From Frigoribacterium faeni (GTDB taxonomy: Bacteria > Actinomycetota > Actinomycetes > Actinomycetales > Microbacteriaceae), in assembly GCF_011761235.1 (NCBI RefSeq), contig NZ_JAAOYW010000001.1, positions 868,781 through 932,780 of the forward strand: DNA of 64,000 bases, read 5' to 3'. Under the pieces are notes generated by a model. That model ran no database searches and was not told the DNA's origin. It saw only the letters and a program-made list of their open reading frames with translations. A program made the position numbers and the translations under genes. Position 1 is the stretch's first letter; each line of letters opens with the position of its first letter. Positions 1,565 to 46,988 of this stretch are shown here, piece after piece.

Positions 1565-4114
<2,550 letters not shown>

Positions 4115-21233: not shown

Positions 21234-21803
21234 ATGGTCGACGCCCGCATCGTCCAGACGACGAAGGCCCTGCACGGCGCCGTCGTCGAGCTCGCCTCGA
21301 AGCAGGCCGTGTCGTCGATCACGGTCGCCGACGTCACCCGCGCGGCGGGCATCAACCGCGCGACGTTCTACAGCCACGCGACCTCGCCCGGCGGGCTGCT
21401 CACCGACGTCATCACGCCCGAGCTCGACCAGATCCGGCTCGACGACCAGGCCGCCCGGGCCGCGTCGACCGGCGACGACGGCGCCGAGATCACCCGCCGC
21501 GCGGTCGAGCGGGTCGTCGACCACGTCGTCCGCTACCGCGACATGTACCGCCTCGCCCTGCCCGACGCGCTCGACGCCTCCATCCACAAGGCCCTCGCGA
21601 CGCACTTCGAGACGTCGTCGTTGCAGCACATCGAGCGCCTGCCCGAGGGGTCGCTGCCCGAGGGCGTGTCGGTGCACATCGCGGCCGGCTACTTCGCACA
21701 CGCCCTGGTCGGCGCCATCGAGGCCTGGCTGTGCGGCAAGCGCACGAGCCGCAAGGCCCTGCTCGACACGATCACGGCGATGACGCCGAGCTGGTGGCAG
21801 TGA
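21234..21803 (+). CDS. TetR-family transcriptional regulator
   Basis: 189 residues. N-terminal helix-turn-helix at about 20-48 (SITVADVTRAAGINRATFYSH), a well-kept TetR recognition helix, and an all-helical ligand domain. ATG 21234 has AGGAGG eight bases upstream, so unlike many neighbours this mRNA has a leader. It is divergent from the Bcr/CflA exporter and is the obvious candidate regulator for it; the ligand is unknown. An 18-bp palindrome overlapping its own promoter suggests autoregulation. Confidence 0.9.
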   Translation: MVDARIVQTTKALHGAVVELASKQAVSSITVADVTRAAGINRATFYSHATSPGGLLTDVITPELDQIRLDDQAARAASTGDDGAEITRRAVERVVDHVVRYRDMYRLALPDALDASIHKALATHFETSSLQHIERLPEGSLPEGVSVHIAAGYFAHALVGAIEAWLCGKRTSRKALLDTITAMTPSWWQ

Positions 21804-21816
21804 CGCCCGTCGCAGG

Positions 21817-22428
21817 CTAGCGCGCGCCGGTCGGGTCGGGCGCGCCGGTCACGGACTGGCTCGCGCCGGTGGCGGCGTCGCCCTCGGCGTCGAGCTCGAC
21901 CACGGCCGGGCCGAGACGCAGCACCCCGTCGGTGAGCGGCTCGCAGCGCATGCCGCCGAGACCGCGCAGCGCCCGGAACGCGCCCGGGGCGAGCACGTGG
22001 TCCATCCACGCGCACGGGTTCGCCGGGCGGGTCGCCCGCAGCAGCACGGGGCCGTCTCCGGTGTCGAGGCTGATCACGCGGCCGCGCAGCGAGTCGACGT
22101 CGAGCCCGCGCGTCACGACGTTGCGCCGTGCCGCGACGGCGTCGAGGGGGCGGTCGAGGCCGAGGAGGCGCGCCGCCGTCTCGAGGGACTCCGCCGCGAG
22201 CAGCGTCACCGACGCGCCCCGGTGCGCGGGCTTGGCGAAGTAGCGGTCGCCGACGATGCCGAGGCCGGCGCGGACCTCGACGCTCTCGTGCAGCTCGGGG
22301 CCGGCCGGGTGCGGCTCGGGGCCGTCGGCGGGGCGGCCGACGTAGCGGGAGCGGGGCGACGCGAGCAGCAGCTCGATCGTGACCGGGGGCGCGGTCCGCA
22401 CCGTCGCCTCCTCGTCCTGCTCGCTCAC
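21817..22428 (-). CDS. MOSC-domain protein
   Basis: 203 residues. A beta-barrel MOSC domain (as at the C-terminus of molybdenum cofactor sulfurase) with the conserved cysteine in NPCAWMD and the blocks GIVGDRYF and RNVVTRG. MOSC proteins bind sulfur and molybdopterin-type ligands. I start it at GTG 22428 because a TACGGT hexamer lies exactly six bases upstream, the leaderless layout seen at many starts here; the longer open frame has no support. Converges on the TetR gene with 13 bases between the stops. No molybdenum-cofactor genes are nearby. Confidence 0.8.
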   Translation of the reverse strand: MSEQDEEATVRTAPPVTIELLLASPRSRYVGRPADGPEPHPAGPELHESVEVRAGLGIVGDRYFAKPAHRGASVTLLAAESLETAARLLGLDRPLDAVAARRNVVTRGLDVDSLRGRVISLDTGDGPVLLRATRPANPCAWMDHVLAPGAFRALRGLGGMRCEPLTDGVLRLGPAVVELDAEGDAATGASQSVTGAPDPTGAR

Positions 22429-22447
22429 GGCACCACCGTACCGGCCT

Positions 22448-22517
22448 CGACGGCGGGTGTTCCGGGCCGAGGGCGGGTCGCCGACGACCCGCCCTCGAAC
22501 AGGAACACCCGCCCTCG
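22448..22517. repeat. 70-bp palindromic repeat, copy A
   Basis: Long imperfect hairpin made of four copies of the unit CGAGGGCGGGT in alternating orientation: outer arms 22448-22463 with 22502-22517 (one mismatch), an unpaired GGGC/AACA step, inner arms of 13 bp, loop 22481-22484. About 65 of 70 bases are identical to copy B at 23559-23628, in the same orientation. The two copies bracket the gene at 22632. Confidence 0.9.
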
Positions 22518-22631
22518 GCGGGGACGGCGCGCGTCTCGTGGCGCCTCCACAGGACGGCGTGGACGCCGCACGCCCCACAGTCGCCCCGCAGCGTGGCCCC
22601 ACCCGGTGACGATCTCGTCGACCATCCGACG

Positions 22632-23549
22632 ATGGACACGACGCCCCACTCCTCCCCCGCCACGCTCACCCGGGTCCACGACTTCGACCGCCGCGACCGA
22701 CGGCGGGCGTCCGCCGAGGGCGTGTTGACCCGACTACGGCGGGGAAGCTACGTCGACTCCCACGAGTGGGTCGGGCTGCGCCGTGACGAGCAGGCACGCG
22801 CGTTCGTCCGGGAGGTGGTGCTGCGGCGGCCGGGCGACGTCCTGGTGAGCCACGTCTCCGCAGCCGTCCTGTACGGACTGCCCCTCGTCGGGCGTGTGGT
22901 CGAACAGGTCGATTCGCTGCGCTTCGACGTCAGCGGCGGGCGGTCGGAGTCCTCCTTGCGGGCTCACCGCAGCCGGCTCGTGTGCTCGGCGGTCGACCTC
23001 GACGGGGTGCACGTCACCCCGGCGGTCCGGACGCTCGTGGACGTCGCCCTCACCGAGCCCCTCGTGACCAGCGTCGCCGCCATCGACGCGGCGCTCGCGC
23101 GCGGCCTGGTCGACGCCGAGGAGCTGGCCGTCGAGCTGGCTCGACACGGCCGAGCACGTGGGCTCGTGCGGGCCCGCGCGGCGATGACCGTGTCCTCCTC
23201 GGGGTCGCTCTCGCCCCTCGAGTCGCTCAGCGCGGTCCGCATGTACCAGGGGCACCTGCTGAGACCGGCACAGCAGGTGCGGTTCCCGTCGCGCTGCGAC
23301 GGCCACTACGAGGTCGACTTCTTCTGGCGGCGCCTACGGCTCATCGGCGAGGCCGACGGCGACGAGAAGTACTTCCTCGACGGGACCGACCGAGCCAGGG
23401 AGGCGGTGCTCGCCGAGAAGGGACGCGAGGACGACCTGCGCGATCTGGGCAACGATGTCGTCCGCTGGGGGTGGGACGAGGCGTGGCGCCCCGGTGCCCT
23501 CTGCCGGAAGCTCGAGGCCCGCGGCGTCCCGGTGGGTGCGCCGTGGTGA
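22632..23549 (+). CDS. AbiEi-like N-terminus plus DUF559/Vsr-like nuclease domain
   Basis: 305 residues. Residues 20-140 resemble the AbiEi-type antitoxin region found in many actinobacterial proteins: a winged-helix edge GVLTRLRRGSYV, SHVSAAVLYGLPL, and TPAVRTLVDVA. Residues 195-285 look like the DUF559/Vsr-like PD-(D/E)xK fold: Glu197, Asp229 in EVDFFW, Glu240, Asp242 and Lys246 in GEADGDEKYF, so the catalytic residues appear intact. ATG 22632 lies six bases after GACCAT. No cognate AbiEii toxin is adjacent. The gene is bracketed by two nearly identical 70-bp palindromes. Function is unknown; nuclease activity is inferred from motif resemblance. A paralogue with the same layout is at 45847. 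Confidence 0.75.
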   Translation: MDTTPHSSPATLTRVHDFDRRDRRRASAEGVLTRLRRGSYVDSHEWVGLRRDEQARAFVREVVLRRPGDVLVSHVSAAVLYGLPLVGRVVEQVDSLRFDVSGGRSESSLRAHRSRLVCSAVDLDGVHVTPAVRTLVDVALTEPLVTSVAAIDAALARGLVDAEELAVELARHGRARGLVRARAAMTVSSSGSLSPLESLSAVRMYQGHLLRPAQQVRFPSRCDGHYEVDFFWRRLRLIGEADGDEKYFLDGTDRAREAVLAEKGREDDLRDLGNDVVRWGWDEAWRPGALCRKLEARGVPVGAPW

Positions 23550-23558
23550 GCACGAGGT

Positions 23559-23628
23559 CGAGGGCGGGTGTTCCGGGCCGAGGGCGGGTCGCCACGGACC
23601 CGCCCTCGAACCGGAACACCCGCCCTCG
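23559..23628. repeat. 70-bp palindromic repeat, copy B
   Basis: Arms of 18 bp (23559-23576 with 23611-23628) and 12 bp (23579-23590 with 23597-23608), all perfect, separated by one unpaired GC/AA step, with a 6-base loop. It starts ten bases after the stop of the gene at 22632. Same family as 22448-22517. Confidence 0.93.
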
Positions 23629-23670
23629 GCGAGGGGTGCGCTCGGGTGGGCGGGTGCGGGCGGGGACGGC

Positions 23671-23707
23671 GAGAGCCGACCGCCCTGGTGCAGGGCGATC
23701 GGCTCTC
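23671..23707. terminator. Bidirectional terminator after chvE
   Basis: Arms 23671-23686 and 23692-23707 pair over 16 bp with one mismatch and a 5-base loop. It lies between the convergent gene ends at 23549 and 23735 and is unrelated in sequence to the 70-bp palindromes. Confidence 0.85.
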
Positions 23708-23734
23708 GTGTTGGTGCTGGTGGTGCGGGTGGCG

Positions 23735-24832
23735 CTACTTCGTCAGCGGGCCCAGGGTGGGGTCGTTGGCGTACGCCTCGGCGGCGTTCTCCTTGGTGAC
23801 GATCTGCGGGGGCAGCAGGTAGGCCGGGACGATCTTCGAGCCGTTGTCGTACGACTCGTCGTCGTTGGTCTCGGCCTTGTCGCCCTCGGACAGCGAGGTC
23901 ACCATGGCGATGGCCTGCTTGACCAGGTTGCGGGTGTCCTTGTTGATGGTGGAGTACTGCACGCCCTCCATGATCGACTTGACCGACTCGACCTCGGAGT
24001 CCTGACCAGTGACGACCGGGACGGTCTTGCCGGCGGTCTGCACCGACGTGATGATGGCGCGGGCCAGCGTGTCGTTGGGGCTCAGGACGCCGTCGAGCTC
24101 AGCCGAGCTGTAGGTGCTGGTGAGCAGCGAGTCCATGCGGCGCTGGGCGTTCTCGGCCTTCCAGCCGTCGGTCGCCGTCTGCTTGATGTCGGTCTGGCCG
24201 GACGCGACGACGACGGTGCCGTCGTCGATGGCCGGCTGCAGGACGCTCATGGCGCCGTCGAAGAACACGGCGGAGTTGGCGTCGTCCGACGAGCCGGAGA
24301 ACAGCTCGATGTTGTACGGGCCCTCGGCCTTCTTGGCCTTCATGCCGTCGAGCAGGGCCTGGCCCTGGAGCTCGCCGACCTTGAAGTTGTCGTAGGCGAC
24401 GTAGTAGTCGACGTCCTCGGTGTTGAGGATGAGACGGTCGTAGGCGATGACGACGGCGCCGGCGTCGTGCGCCGCCTTGACCTGGGTGCCGAGCTGGGCA
24501 CCGTCGGTCGCACCGATGATGATCACCTTCGCGCCCTTGGTCACCATCGACTGGATCTCTTCCTGCTGGTTCGCGACGGTGCCGGAGGCGGCCGCGTACT
24601 GCACGTCGGGCTTGAAGCCCGCCTCGGTGAGGCCGTCGGTGAACAGGTCGCCGGCGAGGACCCAGTTCTCGCTGGTCTTCGCGGGCAGGGCCACGCCGAT
24701 GGTCGAGCCCTGCTCGAAGCCCGAGGCCGCGTCGGACGAACCGGCGTCGGTGCGAGCCGAGTTCGAGCAGCCGCTCAGGATCAGCGTCGTTGCTGCGGCG
24801 ACCGCCATGGTCGCCAGCGCGATTTTGCGCAT
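23735..24832 (-). CDS. chvE: Sugar ABC transporter substrate-binding lipoprotein (ChvE type)
   Basis: 365 residues. Lipoprotein signal with LSGC (Cys22), so it is tethered outside the membrane. The mature part is a type I periplasmic-binding fold (GVALPAKTSENWVLAGD, VIIIGATDGAQLG, VPVVTGQDSEVES) of the ChvE class, which binds several monosaccharides (glucose, galactose, arabinose, xylose in Agrobacterium). It is the last gene of the gguA-gguB-chvE operon, 100 bases after gguB. The sugar specificity here is unknown. The terminator at 23671-23707 ends the operon. Confidence 0.9.
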   Translation of the reverse strand: MRKIALATMAVAAATTLILSGCSNSARTDAGSSDAASGFEQGSTIGVALPAKTSENWVLAGDLFTDGLTEAGFKPDVQYAAASGTVANQQEEIQSMVTKGAKVIIIGATDGAQLGTQVKAAHDAGAVVIAYDRLILNTEDVDYYVAYDNFKVGELQGQALLDGMKAKKAEGPYNIELFSGSSDDANSAVFFDGAMSVLQPAIDDGTVVVASGQTDIKQTATDGWKAENAQRRMDSLLTSTYSSAELDGVLSPNDTLARAIITSVQTAGKTVPVVTGQDSEVESVKSIMEGVQYSTINKDTRNLVKQAIAMVTSLSEGDKAETNDDESYDNGSKIVPAYLLPPQIVTKENAAEAYANDPTLGPLTK

Positions 24833-24932
24833 GCTGTGTCTACTTTCTTGTAGGGGGGATTGCAGGTGGGAGCGGGTGCTCCCGGGGAATGCGCGCCCGG
24901 CCGTCGGTGGACGGGCGCACGGAGGTGCGGGT

Positions 24933-26315
24933 CTAGTTGGGCGTGGTCGACTTGGGTCGCTGCACGTCGGTCAGGTCGCCGTTCGGCTGGACGGCGCCGG
25001 CGGGGGCGTCCGTCGTCGAGCCGACGCCGGACTGGCGCCCGGCGGTCGAGGTCTCGACCGAGGCGGCCGGGGCCGCGACGCCGTCCTTGTCGCGACGGAG
25101 GCCGCGGGTCAGGAAGCCCGTGATGGACGGGCGGCCCTGGCTCTTGTTGTAGACGTCGACGGCGACGGCGATCAGCAGCACGAGGCCCTTGATCATCTGC
25201 ACCTTGTCGGAGCCGACGCCCATCAGCTGGAGGCCGTTGTTGAGCACGGCGATGACGAAGCCACCGACGATCGACCCGGTCACGGTGCCGATGCCGCCGG
25301 CGACGGCCGCGCCGCCGATGAAGACCGACGCGATCGCGTCGAGCTCCCAGTTCAGGCCGTCCTGGGGGCCGGAGGCGCCGGCGCGGGCGACGTAGATCAT
25401 GCCCGCGAGAGCGGCCAGGACCGACATGTTCATCATCACGAAGAAGTTGACGCGCTTCGCGTTCACGCCCGACAGCTCGGCGGCGTGCGAGTTGCCGCCG
25501 ACCGCGTAGATGTGGCGGCCGAAGATCGTGTTCTGGGTGACGAAGCCGTAGACCAGCACCAGCACGCCCAGGATGATGCCCGAGATGGGGAACGAGGTGC
25601 CGACGCGGCCGCCGCCGAAGAGCGTGGCTGCGTAGAGGATGATCGCGACGAGCACGGCGAGCTTGACGAAGCTGACCCACAGGGGCGCCATCTCGGAGCC
25701 CATGGTGCGCTGCACCCGGCGGAGGCGGAACTCGCGCCAGACGACGACCGCGGCCAGCAGGAGGCCGAGCAGCAGCGTCGCGTTGTTGTAGCCCGTGTTC
25801 GGCCCGAACTCGGGCAGGTAGCCGGCGCCGATGACGGTGTAGCCCTCGGGCACGGGCAGCGTGGTCGCGTTGCCGACGAACTGGTTCGCACCGCGGAACA
25901 GCAGCATGCCCGCCAGGGTCACGATGAAGGCGGGGACGCCCACGTAGGCGACCCAGAAGCCCTGCCAGGCGCCGATCGCCGCGCCGACGACGAGGCCGAA
26001 GACGATGGCGACGGGCCACGGGAAGTTCCACGTCGTCATGGAGGTCGCGACCATGATGCCGACGAAGGCGGCGACGGAGCCGACCGAGAGGTCGATGTGC
26101 CCGGCGACGATGACCATCACCATGCCGATGGCGAGGATCAGGATGTACGAGTACTGGCTGACCAGGGCGATCAGGTTCGTCGGCTCGAGCGTCAGCCCGC
26201 CGGTGAGGAACTGGAAGATCACGATGGCGACGACGAGCGTCGCGATCATGCCGAACTGGCGAGCGTTCGAGGTGTTGCCGCCGAACACCTTCTTCAGGTC
26301 TTTGATTCCGCTCAT
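24933..26315 (-). CDS. gguB: Sugar ABC transporter permease (GguB type)
   Basis: 460 residues. Membrane-spanning permease of the branched-chain/ribose (RbsC) family with about ten or eleven helices, and a long N-terminal half typical of GguB rather than RbsC. The last 50 residues (after about 405) form a hydrophilic Ala/Ser/Thr-rich tail that I do not recognise from the family. ATG 26315 overlaps the gguA stop by four bases (ATGA), so the two are translationally coupled. Together with GguA and ChvE it forms a multiple-monosaccharide importer. Confidence 0.9.
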
Positions 26316-45509: not shown

Positions 45510-45846
45510 GGTCGTCCCGCCCCTCACCTCCCGCGCACCGCCCCTCCCCTGCTCCCCGTCTCTGCGCCCCGTCCCCGTGCCCCGTGCGTCTTCCCTCGCA
45601 CCCCGGAGTGGGGGGGGGGGCCCCCCCCCACCCGGGGGGGGGGGGGGCGCCCGGGGGGGGGGGGGGGGGGGGGGGGGCGGGCCCCCCCCCCCCCCCCCCG
45701 CCCCCCCCCCCCCCCCCCACTCCGGGGTGCGGGGGTGGGGACGAGCCCGGCTCGCCTCTCCCCCCGAGGCGGGCCCGCGACCGTCTCGGCCCACAGGAGG
45801 CGCCCCGCTCCCCCGCAGGACGACCTGCCTCGACGATCGTGGCGGC
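45510..45846. other. Spacer before the second AbiEi/DUF559 gene (337 bases)
   Basis: No gene seen. It is dominated by the 135-base palindrome at 45597-45731, whose core is almost pure G and C. The flanks (45520-45596) are pyrimidine-rich on the plus strand. Confidence 0.7.
45597..45731. repeat. Palindrome D: shared outer arm with a homopolymeric G/C core
   Basis: Outer arms CGCACCCCGGAGTGG (45597-45611) and CCACTCCGGGGTGCG (45717-45731) are perfectly complementary. Between them about 105 bases contain one A and no T, including runs of up to roughly 27 G and 19 C. The outer arm agrees with the element downstream of the gene (GCACCCCGAAGTGG, 46929) at 13 of 14 positions. The core may be real or an assembly/read artefact at a strong hairpin. 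Confidence 0.8.
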
Positions 45847-46875
45847 ATGGCAGATCCCGATCCCCTCACCGTCCCGTTGCTCTTCGCCGCCACGCACGGT
45901 GCGCAGTCGCACGAGGCCCGCGCCCTCCGCCGGGCCGTCGCCGCCGGCGCCGTCGTCCGGGTGCGCCGGGGCGTGTTCACGGCGGTGCCGGTCTGGGGCG
46001 CGCTCGACGCCCGCGGCCGACTCGTCGTGCGGACGCGGGCCGTGGTGCTCGGCTCCGCCCGCGTGGTGGCGTCGCACGGGAGCGCCGTGGCGCTGCACGA
46101 CCTGCCCGCCGTCCGGCAGGCCGCGGACCGGGTCAGCGTCGTCGACCCCGGTCGGACGACGACGAAGGTCACGCCGACGCTGCGGACCCGTCCCGGCCCG
46201 CTCCGCGACGAGGAGGTGGTGGCCCTGTCGGGCGTCCGGGTCACCGGCCTCGAGCGCACCGCCGTCGACGTCGCCGGGACCGCGCCGTTCGCCGACGCCG
46301 TGATGTGCGTCGACGCGGTGCTCCGTCGACTGGTCCTGCCGCGGGGCCACCGGACCGGGGTCGAGGTCGACGCCGAGCTCGACCGGCACCGCGCTCGCCT
46401 CCTCGCCGCGGTCGGCGAGGGACACGGGCCGGGCCAGGTGGCCGCCCGTCGTGCGATCGCCTTCGCGTCGCCGTGGGCCGAGAACGGCGGGGAGTCGCTG
46501 GTCCGCGTCGCGCTGCACGAGCTGGGCGTCCCGGCTCCCGAGCTGCAGCGCGAGTTCGTCGTCGCCTCGGGCACCGTCCGGTGCGACTTCTACGATCCCT
46601 CCCGCCTGGCCGTGTTCGAGTTCGACGGCTTCGTGAAGTACGCGGACGCCGCCCTGCGGGGCGGGCGGACGCCGGCCGAGGTGGTGCGCGACGAGAAGCG
46701 TCGTGAGGCCGAGCTGCTCGAACGGCCCGACGTGCGGACGGTCGTGCGCGTCGAGTACCGCGACGTGGTCGATCCGCGTCGGCTGGCCCGGCTGCTGGGC
46801 CGGGCTGGCGTCCCCGTCGACCCGCGGCGCGTGACGGCGGCGGCGCGGGCCGCGCGCCTCCGCTTCGCGGCCTGA
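45847..46875 (+). CDS. AbiEi-like N-terminus plus DUF559/Vsr-like nuclease domain, second copy
   Basis: 342 residues, same architecture as the gene at 22632. AbiEi-like region: VVRVRRGVFTAV (37-48), VASHGSAVALHDLP (74-87), VTGLERTAVDVA (132-143). DUF559-like end: Glu216 in NGGESLVRVAL, Asp247 in VRCDFYD, Glu258-Asp260-Lys264 in FEFDGFVKYAD, so the PD-(D/E)xK residues are complete. The two proteins differ strongly in sequence, so this is not a recent duplication. No toxin gene is adjacent. It lies between palindrome D (45597-45731) and palindrome C (46929-46988). Function unknown; nuclease activity is inferred from motif resemblance. Confidence 0.75.
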   Translation: MADPDPLTVPLLFAATHGAQSHEARALRRAVAAGAVVRVRRGVFTAVPVWGALDARGRLVVRTRAVVLGSARVVASHGSAVALHDLPAVRQAADRVSVVDPGRTTTKVTPTLRTRPGPLRDEEVVALSGVRVTGLERTAVDVAGTAPFADAVMCVDAVLRRLVLPRGHRTGVEVDAELDRHRARLLAAVGEGHGPGQVAARRAIAFASPWAENGGESLVRVALHELGVPAPELQREFVVASGTVRCDFYDPSRLAVFEFDGFVKYADAALRGGRTPAEVVRDEKRREAELLERPDVRTVVRVEYRDVVDPRRLARLLGRAGVPVDPRRVTAAARAARLRFAA

Positions 46876-46928
46876 CGCCGCCCCGCACCCCGCGCGCGCC
46901 AGCCCCGCACCCCGCGCGCGCTCGCCCC

Positions 46929-46988
46929 GCACCCCGAAGTGGACGATGAACCCCGAAACGACGGGGTGCATCGTCCACTTCGGGGTTC
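46929..46988. repeat. Palindrome C: 60-bp hairpin downstream of the second cassette gene
   Basis: Left arm 46929-46955 and right arm 46962-46988 are complementary over 27 bp except at two symmetrical steps (GCACCCCG and AACCCCG are exchanged between arms). Loop AAACGA. Core unit ACCCCGAAGTGGACGATG. Same outer sequence as palindrome D. Confidence 0.9.

Follow-up and report, generated by a model that had tools for sequence, protein, structure and literature searches.

The 64-kb window analysed here, i.e., the whole stretch of DNA under study, is part of a Frigoribacterium genome (referred to as G000) and contains two genes encoding AbiEi/PD-(D/E)xK nuclease-like proteins, each found between long palindromes (Table 1). 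In agreement with the initial annotation, the 70-bp palindromes A and B are in the same orientation, have the same base at 65 of 70 positions (60 of 70 in comparison with the reverse complement) and are built as four-unit hairpins with 30 of 35 Watson-Crick pairs each, and gene calls also agree that a single gene is located between them. The layout of A is 11-9-12-6-12-9-11 (unit-spacer-unit-loop-unit-spacer-unit) and B is built alike; each contains four CGAGGGCGGGT units, one of which, in A, has a single mismatch. With up to two mismatches allowed, the 16-base sequence CGAGGGCGGGTGTTCC is matched six times in the window, four of them in A and B, against 0.12 matches expected from shuffles. 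An ungapped detector identified five long hairpins in the window, compared with one and none in two Markov-simulated sequences. Four of the five adjoin the two AbiEi-like genes, one of these four being a G/C run (45634-45718) that is probably artefactual.

Table 1. Positions of the two nuclease-like genes and their palindromes in the 64-kb window.
Feature	Position	Strand	Remarks
Segment without counterpart at the syntenic G008 site	22445-23657	none	boundaries approximate to a few bases
Palindrome A	22448-22517	none	70 bp; family 1 (unit CGAGGGCGGGT); 5' of the AbiEi/PD-(D/E)xK gene
AbiEi/PD-(D/E)xK nuclease-like gene	22632-23549	+	ATG at 22632, stop at 23549; in-frame GTG at 22593 upstream as alternative start
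Palindrome B	23559-23628	none	70 bp; family 1; starts 9 bp past the stop codon
Left palindrome, second cassette	45598-45731	none	outer arms GCACCCCGGAGTGG / CCACTCCGGGGTGC
Second AbiEi/PD-(D/E)xK nuclease-like gene	45847-46875	+	33% identity to the first gene in the alignment
Right palindrome, second cassette	46931-46986	none	family CACCCCGAAGTGGACGATG; further genome copies (L036)

The protein encoded between A and B has an N-terminal AbiEi-like part and a C-terminal Vsr-like core with E210, D242 and E253-x-D255-G-x-x-K259 (numbered from the GTG). Fifteen residues are invariant in an alignment of 22 sequences, including E210, D242, E253, D255, G256, K259 and R278. At E 0.01, PADLOC AbiEi models match all 22 aligned members, which upholds the AbiEi-like region annotated initially, and Pfam matches AbiEi_4 in 8 and DUF559 in 1 of the 22; AbiEi_4 is under its Pfam cut-off in the single case where the cut-off was given. 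On the PADLOC models, the protein is assigned as a putative AbiEi. The DUF559/Vsr-like domain also annotated is backed by its invariant E210, D242, E253 and K259, but not by the Pfam DUF559 model, for which this protein scores 17 bits against a cut-off of 20.6. A fold search with the predicted structure (mean pLDDT of 78) returned an R2 retrotransposon protein, Vsr and I-Bth0305I together with unrelated proteins. The matches to PDB folds are weak (best E value of 0.012, none at 0.001, with Vsr and I-Bth0305I at 0.07-0.29), and a sequence search of solved structures in the PDB gave no match at E 1 or better. By these structure matches, the helix-strand order of the model and the residue pattern, the predicted C-terminal domain weakly resembles a Vsr-like, restriction-endonuclease-like fold.

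Named relatives of the gene are found in ACAM 257 (73% identity), followed by PhB24, PhB116 and CFBP 13712 (41-44%), and no second close copy was found in G000. The dN/dS ratio is 0.29 against the counterpart in G001 and ranges from 0.17 to 0.33 over five pairs; the protein is thus under purifying selection. The neighbours of the cassette encode MOSC and Peripla_BP_4 proteins. A plasmid or phage cassette was considered and rejected, with one match among 72,556 plasmid records (27% identity) and none among 50,697 phage records.

The second cassette, annotated at 45597-46988 with another palindrome family, was confirmed on its right side, where the palindrome is sound (24 of 25 pairs), but only in part on its left side, where only the outer arms (at approximately 45598 and 45731) look real and the G/C-run centre is probably an artefact. 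G/C (or N) runs are found inside the palindromes of one family (window 45612-45718; L037:5656-5785; L047:1706-1910; L036 near 4330). They probably arose as artefacts of sequencing or assembly where hairpins are strong, and a two-colour dark-cycle effect is our guess at their cause. Long palindromes adjoin every one of six G000 genes, the first gene and five paralogs, and belong to six different families, with the units CGAGGGCGGGT, CACCCCGAAGTGGACGATG, CGACGGGCGAGTTCGTC, ACACCCCGTTCGCCG, GCACCGGGTTCCGTACACTGCACC (one side only) and GAACCCCGTTCCGTTCAAAGAACC; a profile search gave a seventh G000 match outside this set of six. In 240 kb of control DNA from G000, 16 hairpins were detected, seven of them scoring at least 10, and the other four DUF559 matches of G000 (L102-L105) have no matched palindrome pair. 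Next to one paralog, a 60-bp palindrome is present in four tandem copies with a spacing of approximately 170 bp (L099:1844-2418). Two unrelated palindrome families also stand repeatedly side by side in G000, like mosaic BIME repeats (C2:400639/400749, 723445/723516, 723710/723781 and 735831/735991; C4:116868/116981).

A search with the 70-mer, as the initial annotation had proposed, revealed 30 full-length copies of family 1 in G000, every one exactly 70 bp long, and at E 1e-6 the family is found in 5 of the 60 genomes searched, all 5 within the 16 of the genus. Only A and B adjoin the gene at 22632-23549; the other 28 copies do not, so that the palindrome is not confined to this gene. The flanks of the copies are mutually unrelated and their ends are precise, with a pyrimidine directly 5' and a purine directly 3' in all 30. 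In a check for GTAG/CGTC tags, made on family 1 only, CGAG starts 24 copies, CTCG ends 26 and both are found in 21. No target-site duplication was detected in family 1: a shared flank of at least 3 bases is present in 1 of the 30 copies versus 0.58 in shuffles. The first 891 kb of one contig (C1:1-891000, 28% of the genome) contain none of the 30 copies and none of those listed for two other dispersed families; the GC skew in G000 gives no clear placement of origin or terminus. In G008, tandem partial matches to family-1 units approximately 20 bp apart are located at C1:1010500-1012000 (L172). Five adjacent pairs or clusters of family-1 copies elsewhere in G000, G001 and G008 have no gene of the protein family (E 1e-3) between them.

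By the gene calls of a home-made codon-usage caller trained on G000, 29 of the 30 copies are intergenic (16 in tandem, 8 in convergent and 5 in divergent gaps) and one lies within a predicted gene. If the gene were non-mobile and the palindromes were bidirectional terminators or insulators of the ordinary kind, strong, GC-rich hairpins such as these and the eight convergent gaps would be expected, but the copies between divergent genes largely refute a terminator-only reading. Moreover, no T run was found next to the hairpins, the neighbouring gene has a separate hairpin of its own (23670-23708) and, unlike independent terminators, the other 28 copies share 84-94% identity with A or B at a fixed length, all of which makes this explanation very improbable. 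A known RNA was also ruled out, as the Rfam matches in the 64-kb window at gathering thresholds are an SRP RNA and one tRNA only.

Conservation within family 1 was analysed in an alignment of 67 copies from five species, consisting of the 30 copies of G000 plus 37 further unique matches out of 41, the four omitted being poor or out of register. Almost no variation is seen in the units, but the spacers vary, partly with compensation. Paired cells amount to 88% compared with 39-53% in slid controls, and 77 cells are changed on both sides, versus a shuffled mean of 55 and with none of 500 shuffles reaching 77. Base pairs that carry such a two-sided change are no more numerous than in shuffles (10 versus 9.1; 189 of 500). 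Because the shuffles keep the relatedness among copies, the covariation is support rather than proof. The spacer is nearly uniform across the 30 G000 copies and diverse in G008, despite several sites that are common by position, which suggests that copies may be rewritten within a genome.

Matches to the protein family are found in 47 of the 60 Microbacteriaceae genomes searched. We compared 60 loci, of which 40 are high-scoring homologs (class I; the best 48 in the profile search minus six G000 matches and two from G060, one of the latter on a contig expected to be too short) and 20 are lower-scoring homologs (class II; 20 of the 25 listed with E values from 2.1e-28 to 2.4e-23, three gene fragments and two loci being omitted). 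Hairpins scoring at least 10 number 58 (32 in class I and 26 in class II) at distances of up to 500 bp from the gene, versus 5 (4 and 1, respectively) over the adjoining 3.5 kb to either side. With a gapped detector and a threshold set at the 95th percentile of 780 control windows of the same loci, which are mostly coding, palindromes exceed the threshold on at least one side of the gene at 52 loci (34 of 40 in class I, 18 of 20 in class II) and on both sides at 36 (23 of 40 and 13 of 20); none exceeds it at the remaining 8. At 31 of the 36 two-sided loci the two flanks match each other above the 99th percentile of cross-locus pair similarity, and at 5 they do not. A fairer control is given by 123 other genes of the same loci, of which 20 have a palindrome on at least one side, 1 on both and none a matched pair; among other intergenic gaps of at least 70 bp at these loci, 17 of 121 qualify. 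Distant homologs in Raineyella, Frankiales and Frankiaceae (L122-L125) have a weak hairpin within 500 bp in 1 of 4 cases and none in 3 of 4. The initial annotation had allowed that the palindromes might occur widely with no tie to DUF559 genes. They are indeed widespread, with 30 copies in G000, but the link is strong when viewed from the gene side.

Each of eight palindromes flanking a gene, drawn from seven genomes that represent seven genera, has further copies in its own genome, and among the matches listed none was found in the genomes of the other six genera. With the flanks of the gene included, the listed places of the eight families number at least 15, 2, 19, 4, 4, 8, 11 and 2, respectively. 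A ninth family (GACACCGCCGAGTG...) occupies at least 21 places in G000 (L046:1820-1881 and 20 further places listed), and no partner gene was found for it. Such an abundant family without known partner would be expected if other machinery moved the palindromes and the gene family merely sat at their landing places or shared hypervariable sites, as would the position of most family-1 copies away from the gene and the presence of family 1 in species without a close gene ortholog (G004, G008 and G012, where the best homologs have 44% identity in G008 and 43% in G012, and none is found at E 1e-30 in G004). The gene as such a bystander is nevertheless rather improbable, given that the hairpin excess collapses past 500 bp and is absent at other genes and gaps of the same loci, that flanks are alike within a locus and different between loci of one genome and that no Y1_Tnp domain is found in the genus genomes.

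The position and construction of the palindromes bear on a further explanation, in which an AbiEi-type regulator uses the palindromes as its own operators, the dispersed copies are regulon or titration sites and the nuclease serves, for example, in defence. Of the 5' palindromes, 26 of 42 end 10-151 bases ahead of the farthest in-frame ATG or GTG, and 13 of 42 are downstream of it, where that start is probably too early. Direct repeats are present in the arms of 20 of 40 class I palindromes (shuffled mean of 1.8), 15 of the 20 at a distance of 19-20 bp, and in 3 of 30 class II arms. Thus, many class I palindromes consist of four units two helical turns apart, and those of class II are mostly plain hairpins. 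An autoregulator would account for the frequent palindrome upstream of the start codon, for a unit spacing that suits binding to one face of duplex DNA and for the AbiEi matches (all 22 members with PADLOC models and 8 of them with Pfam AbiEi_4, at E 0.01). It leaves unexplained the matched second palindrome at or near the stop codon (in 38 of 46 cases it starts at -58 to +45 relative to that codon), the 24 of 30 family-1 copies in tandem or convergent gaps, the precise ends of copies within unrelated flanks and the invariant nuclease residues. We regard this autoregulator or decoy, the main rival, as unlikely. Protein and palindrome similarity are correlated within the genus (rho of 0.51, 0 of 2000 permutations, n=18), which is partly vertical descent at shared loci; over all genera the correlation is not significant (rho of 0.07, 148 of 2000 permutations, n=52).

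Comparison of related species shows that the cassette is gained or lost: the gene and both palindromes are missing in 8 of the 9 examined, contrary to an alternative named in the initial annotation, in which all relatives would carry the same gene and flanks. In G008, bases 3-1045 and 2259-3601 of the query (positions 21400-25000) are adjacent. The gap between the flank alignments is 5 bases in G008, a clean junction, and 23-139 bases in the other seven empty relatives. The check for empty sites and target duplication was positive for the former, with one clean junction, but revealed no duplication. Of the self-contained mobile cassette suggested initially, gain or loss is borne out, but the cassette is no multicopy mobile unit: a second close copy of the gene is not found in G000 and 28 of 30 palindrome copies are elsewhere. 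Target-site duplication is lacking as well. In G001, the gene is at the same place with identical units and different spacers. As the neighbouring gene is 97.4% identical between G001 and G008 and 94.2% between each of them and G000, G001 and G008 are the closer pair, and either the cassette was lost cleanly in G008 or it was gained more than once. Two regions that were compared contain approximately seven sites of family 1, of which three are common to G000, G001 and G008 and three to the sister pair G001 and G008. Such sharing by position indicates that spread is slow or old. A third region has one site in G000 that is missing in G001, one in G000 and G001 that is missing in G008 and one in G001 and G008 that is missing in G000. 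No direct movement of a palindrome or cassette was observed in these species comparisons.

Between G000 and G001, synonymous divergence is 0.74 for the gene and 0.16-0.38 for five neighbours. In a second syntenic clade (three pairs), it is 1.07-1.26 for the gene versus 0.34-0.67 for neighbours, a range that leaves out two comparisons seemingly misaligned in frame; in a fourth pair, G008 and PhB116, it is 0.37 for the gene. The raised divergence, to which codon bias may contribute, fits a turnover independent of the host genome.

The partner enzymes of REPIN/RAYT (REPtron) systems are IS200/IS605-related tyrosine transposases of the Y1/HUH type; RAYT genes are known as single-copy genes, and orphan REP families are known. 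REPIN/RAYT systems are described as short, dispersed extragenic palindromes of inverted units with repeat-flanked partner genes and several repeat types per organism (PMC3116915, PMC3733652). The palindromes described here are likewise dispersed and extragenic (29 of 30 family-1 copies are intergenic, and 8 of 8 other gene-flanking families have further copies), the gene is flanked by one repeat family (31 of 36 two-sided loci versus 0 of 123 other genes), and one partner gene with private palindromes, several systems per genome and one partnerless family are found. The REP/RAYT analogy with a nuclease-like partner, drawn from the sequence of the window in the initial annotation, is thereby extended: the link is family-wide, the matched pairs are gene-specific and each paralog has a different palindrome. 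In contrast to REPIN/RAYT, the partner is an AbiEi and PD-(D/E)xK protein and not a Y1 transposase, and the palindromes have a greater length, with either four units at intervals of 19-20 bp (many of class I) or two plain arms (class II). At E 0.01, Y1_Tnp (PF01797) was not found in any of the 16 genus genomes (the control was positive in 6 of 14 known genomes), by which a RAYT-driven REP was ruled out.

Other known systems share single features. The C-terminal nuclease fold gives weak matches to the R2 nickase and to Vsr-like homing endonucleases of the EDxHD type, e.g., I-Bth0305I. Homing endonucleases are described as mobilising their own reading frames (PMC3943268). They cut the uninvaded allele at their insertion site, and for the present cassette alleles lacking it are found in related species. 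The gene described here, however, is intergenic, not within an intron or intein, is bracketed by its own repeated palindromes, has an AbiEi-like N-terminus and is found in a cassette without a second gene such as one for a reverse transcriptase. The AbiE type IV toxin-antitoxin system is similar in that the N-terminal part matches AbiEi models, but only one gene with a fused nuclease domain is present between the palindromes, and the neighbours of this cassette encode MOSC and Peripla_BP_4 proteins, not AbiEii. Gene-less copies and an enzyme gene between copies of one repeat also recall MITEs and their autonomous parents, from which the present system differs in lacking target-site duplications, in having repeats that are palindromic over their whole length instead of terminal inverted repeats and in an enzyme gene that is not multicopy. 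In the open-access full-text literature searched, no published description of the link between the nuclease gene and palindromes and no paper naming both DUF559 and AbiEi were found.

Since no Y1 transposase is found in the genus genomes, we propose an endonuclease-driven system. With moderate confidence, we favour a REPIN-like repeat system with a dedicated AbiEi and Vsr-like PD-(D/E)xK enzyme, which is not a known REP-type transposase. That it represents a new class of bacterial mobile repeat, in which private palindromes are spread and homogenised by AbiEi-Vsr-like endonucleases with several systems per genome, is a broader proposal to which we give even chances. Such a system would consist of two parts: a gene for an AbiEi-type N-terminal DNA-binding part joined to a C-terminal Vsr-like PD-(D/E)xK nuclease, and a private family of palindromes of approximately 60-75 bp, two bracketing the gene and further copies in intergenic regions elsewhere. 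We infer that the protein binds the unit and cuts, and that cutting drives spread or homogenisation. Probably acting as a dimer or tetramer, the protein would recognise the CGAGGGCGGGT unit either in the duplex or in a hairpin extruded from it, within a site of four such units with two-fold symmetry whose direct copies are 20 bp (approximately two helical turns) apart, and would nick or cut at the palindrome. Repair that copies the palindrome would then place the element at new intergenic sites and make the copies within one genome alike. To our knowledge, no joining activity is known for PD-(D/E)xK enzymes, so integration would need host repair. Nicking or cutting together with host repair would stand in place of transposase chemistry, and each enzyme lineage would carry and rewrite its own palindrome family. 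A two-fold symmetric site of such length is plausible, given that a review describes I-Bth0305I as dimerising on a target that spans almost 60 bp (PMC3943268).

These results tie a common protein family to private palindrome families and provide a concrete, testable candidate enzyme for the spread of palindromes outside the RAYT world. They also point to a function for numerous genes with the appearance of solitary AbiEi antitoxins, and offer many natural enzyme-site pairs in which the joint change of a nuclease and its DNA site can be studied.
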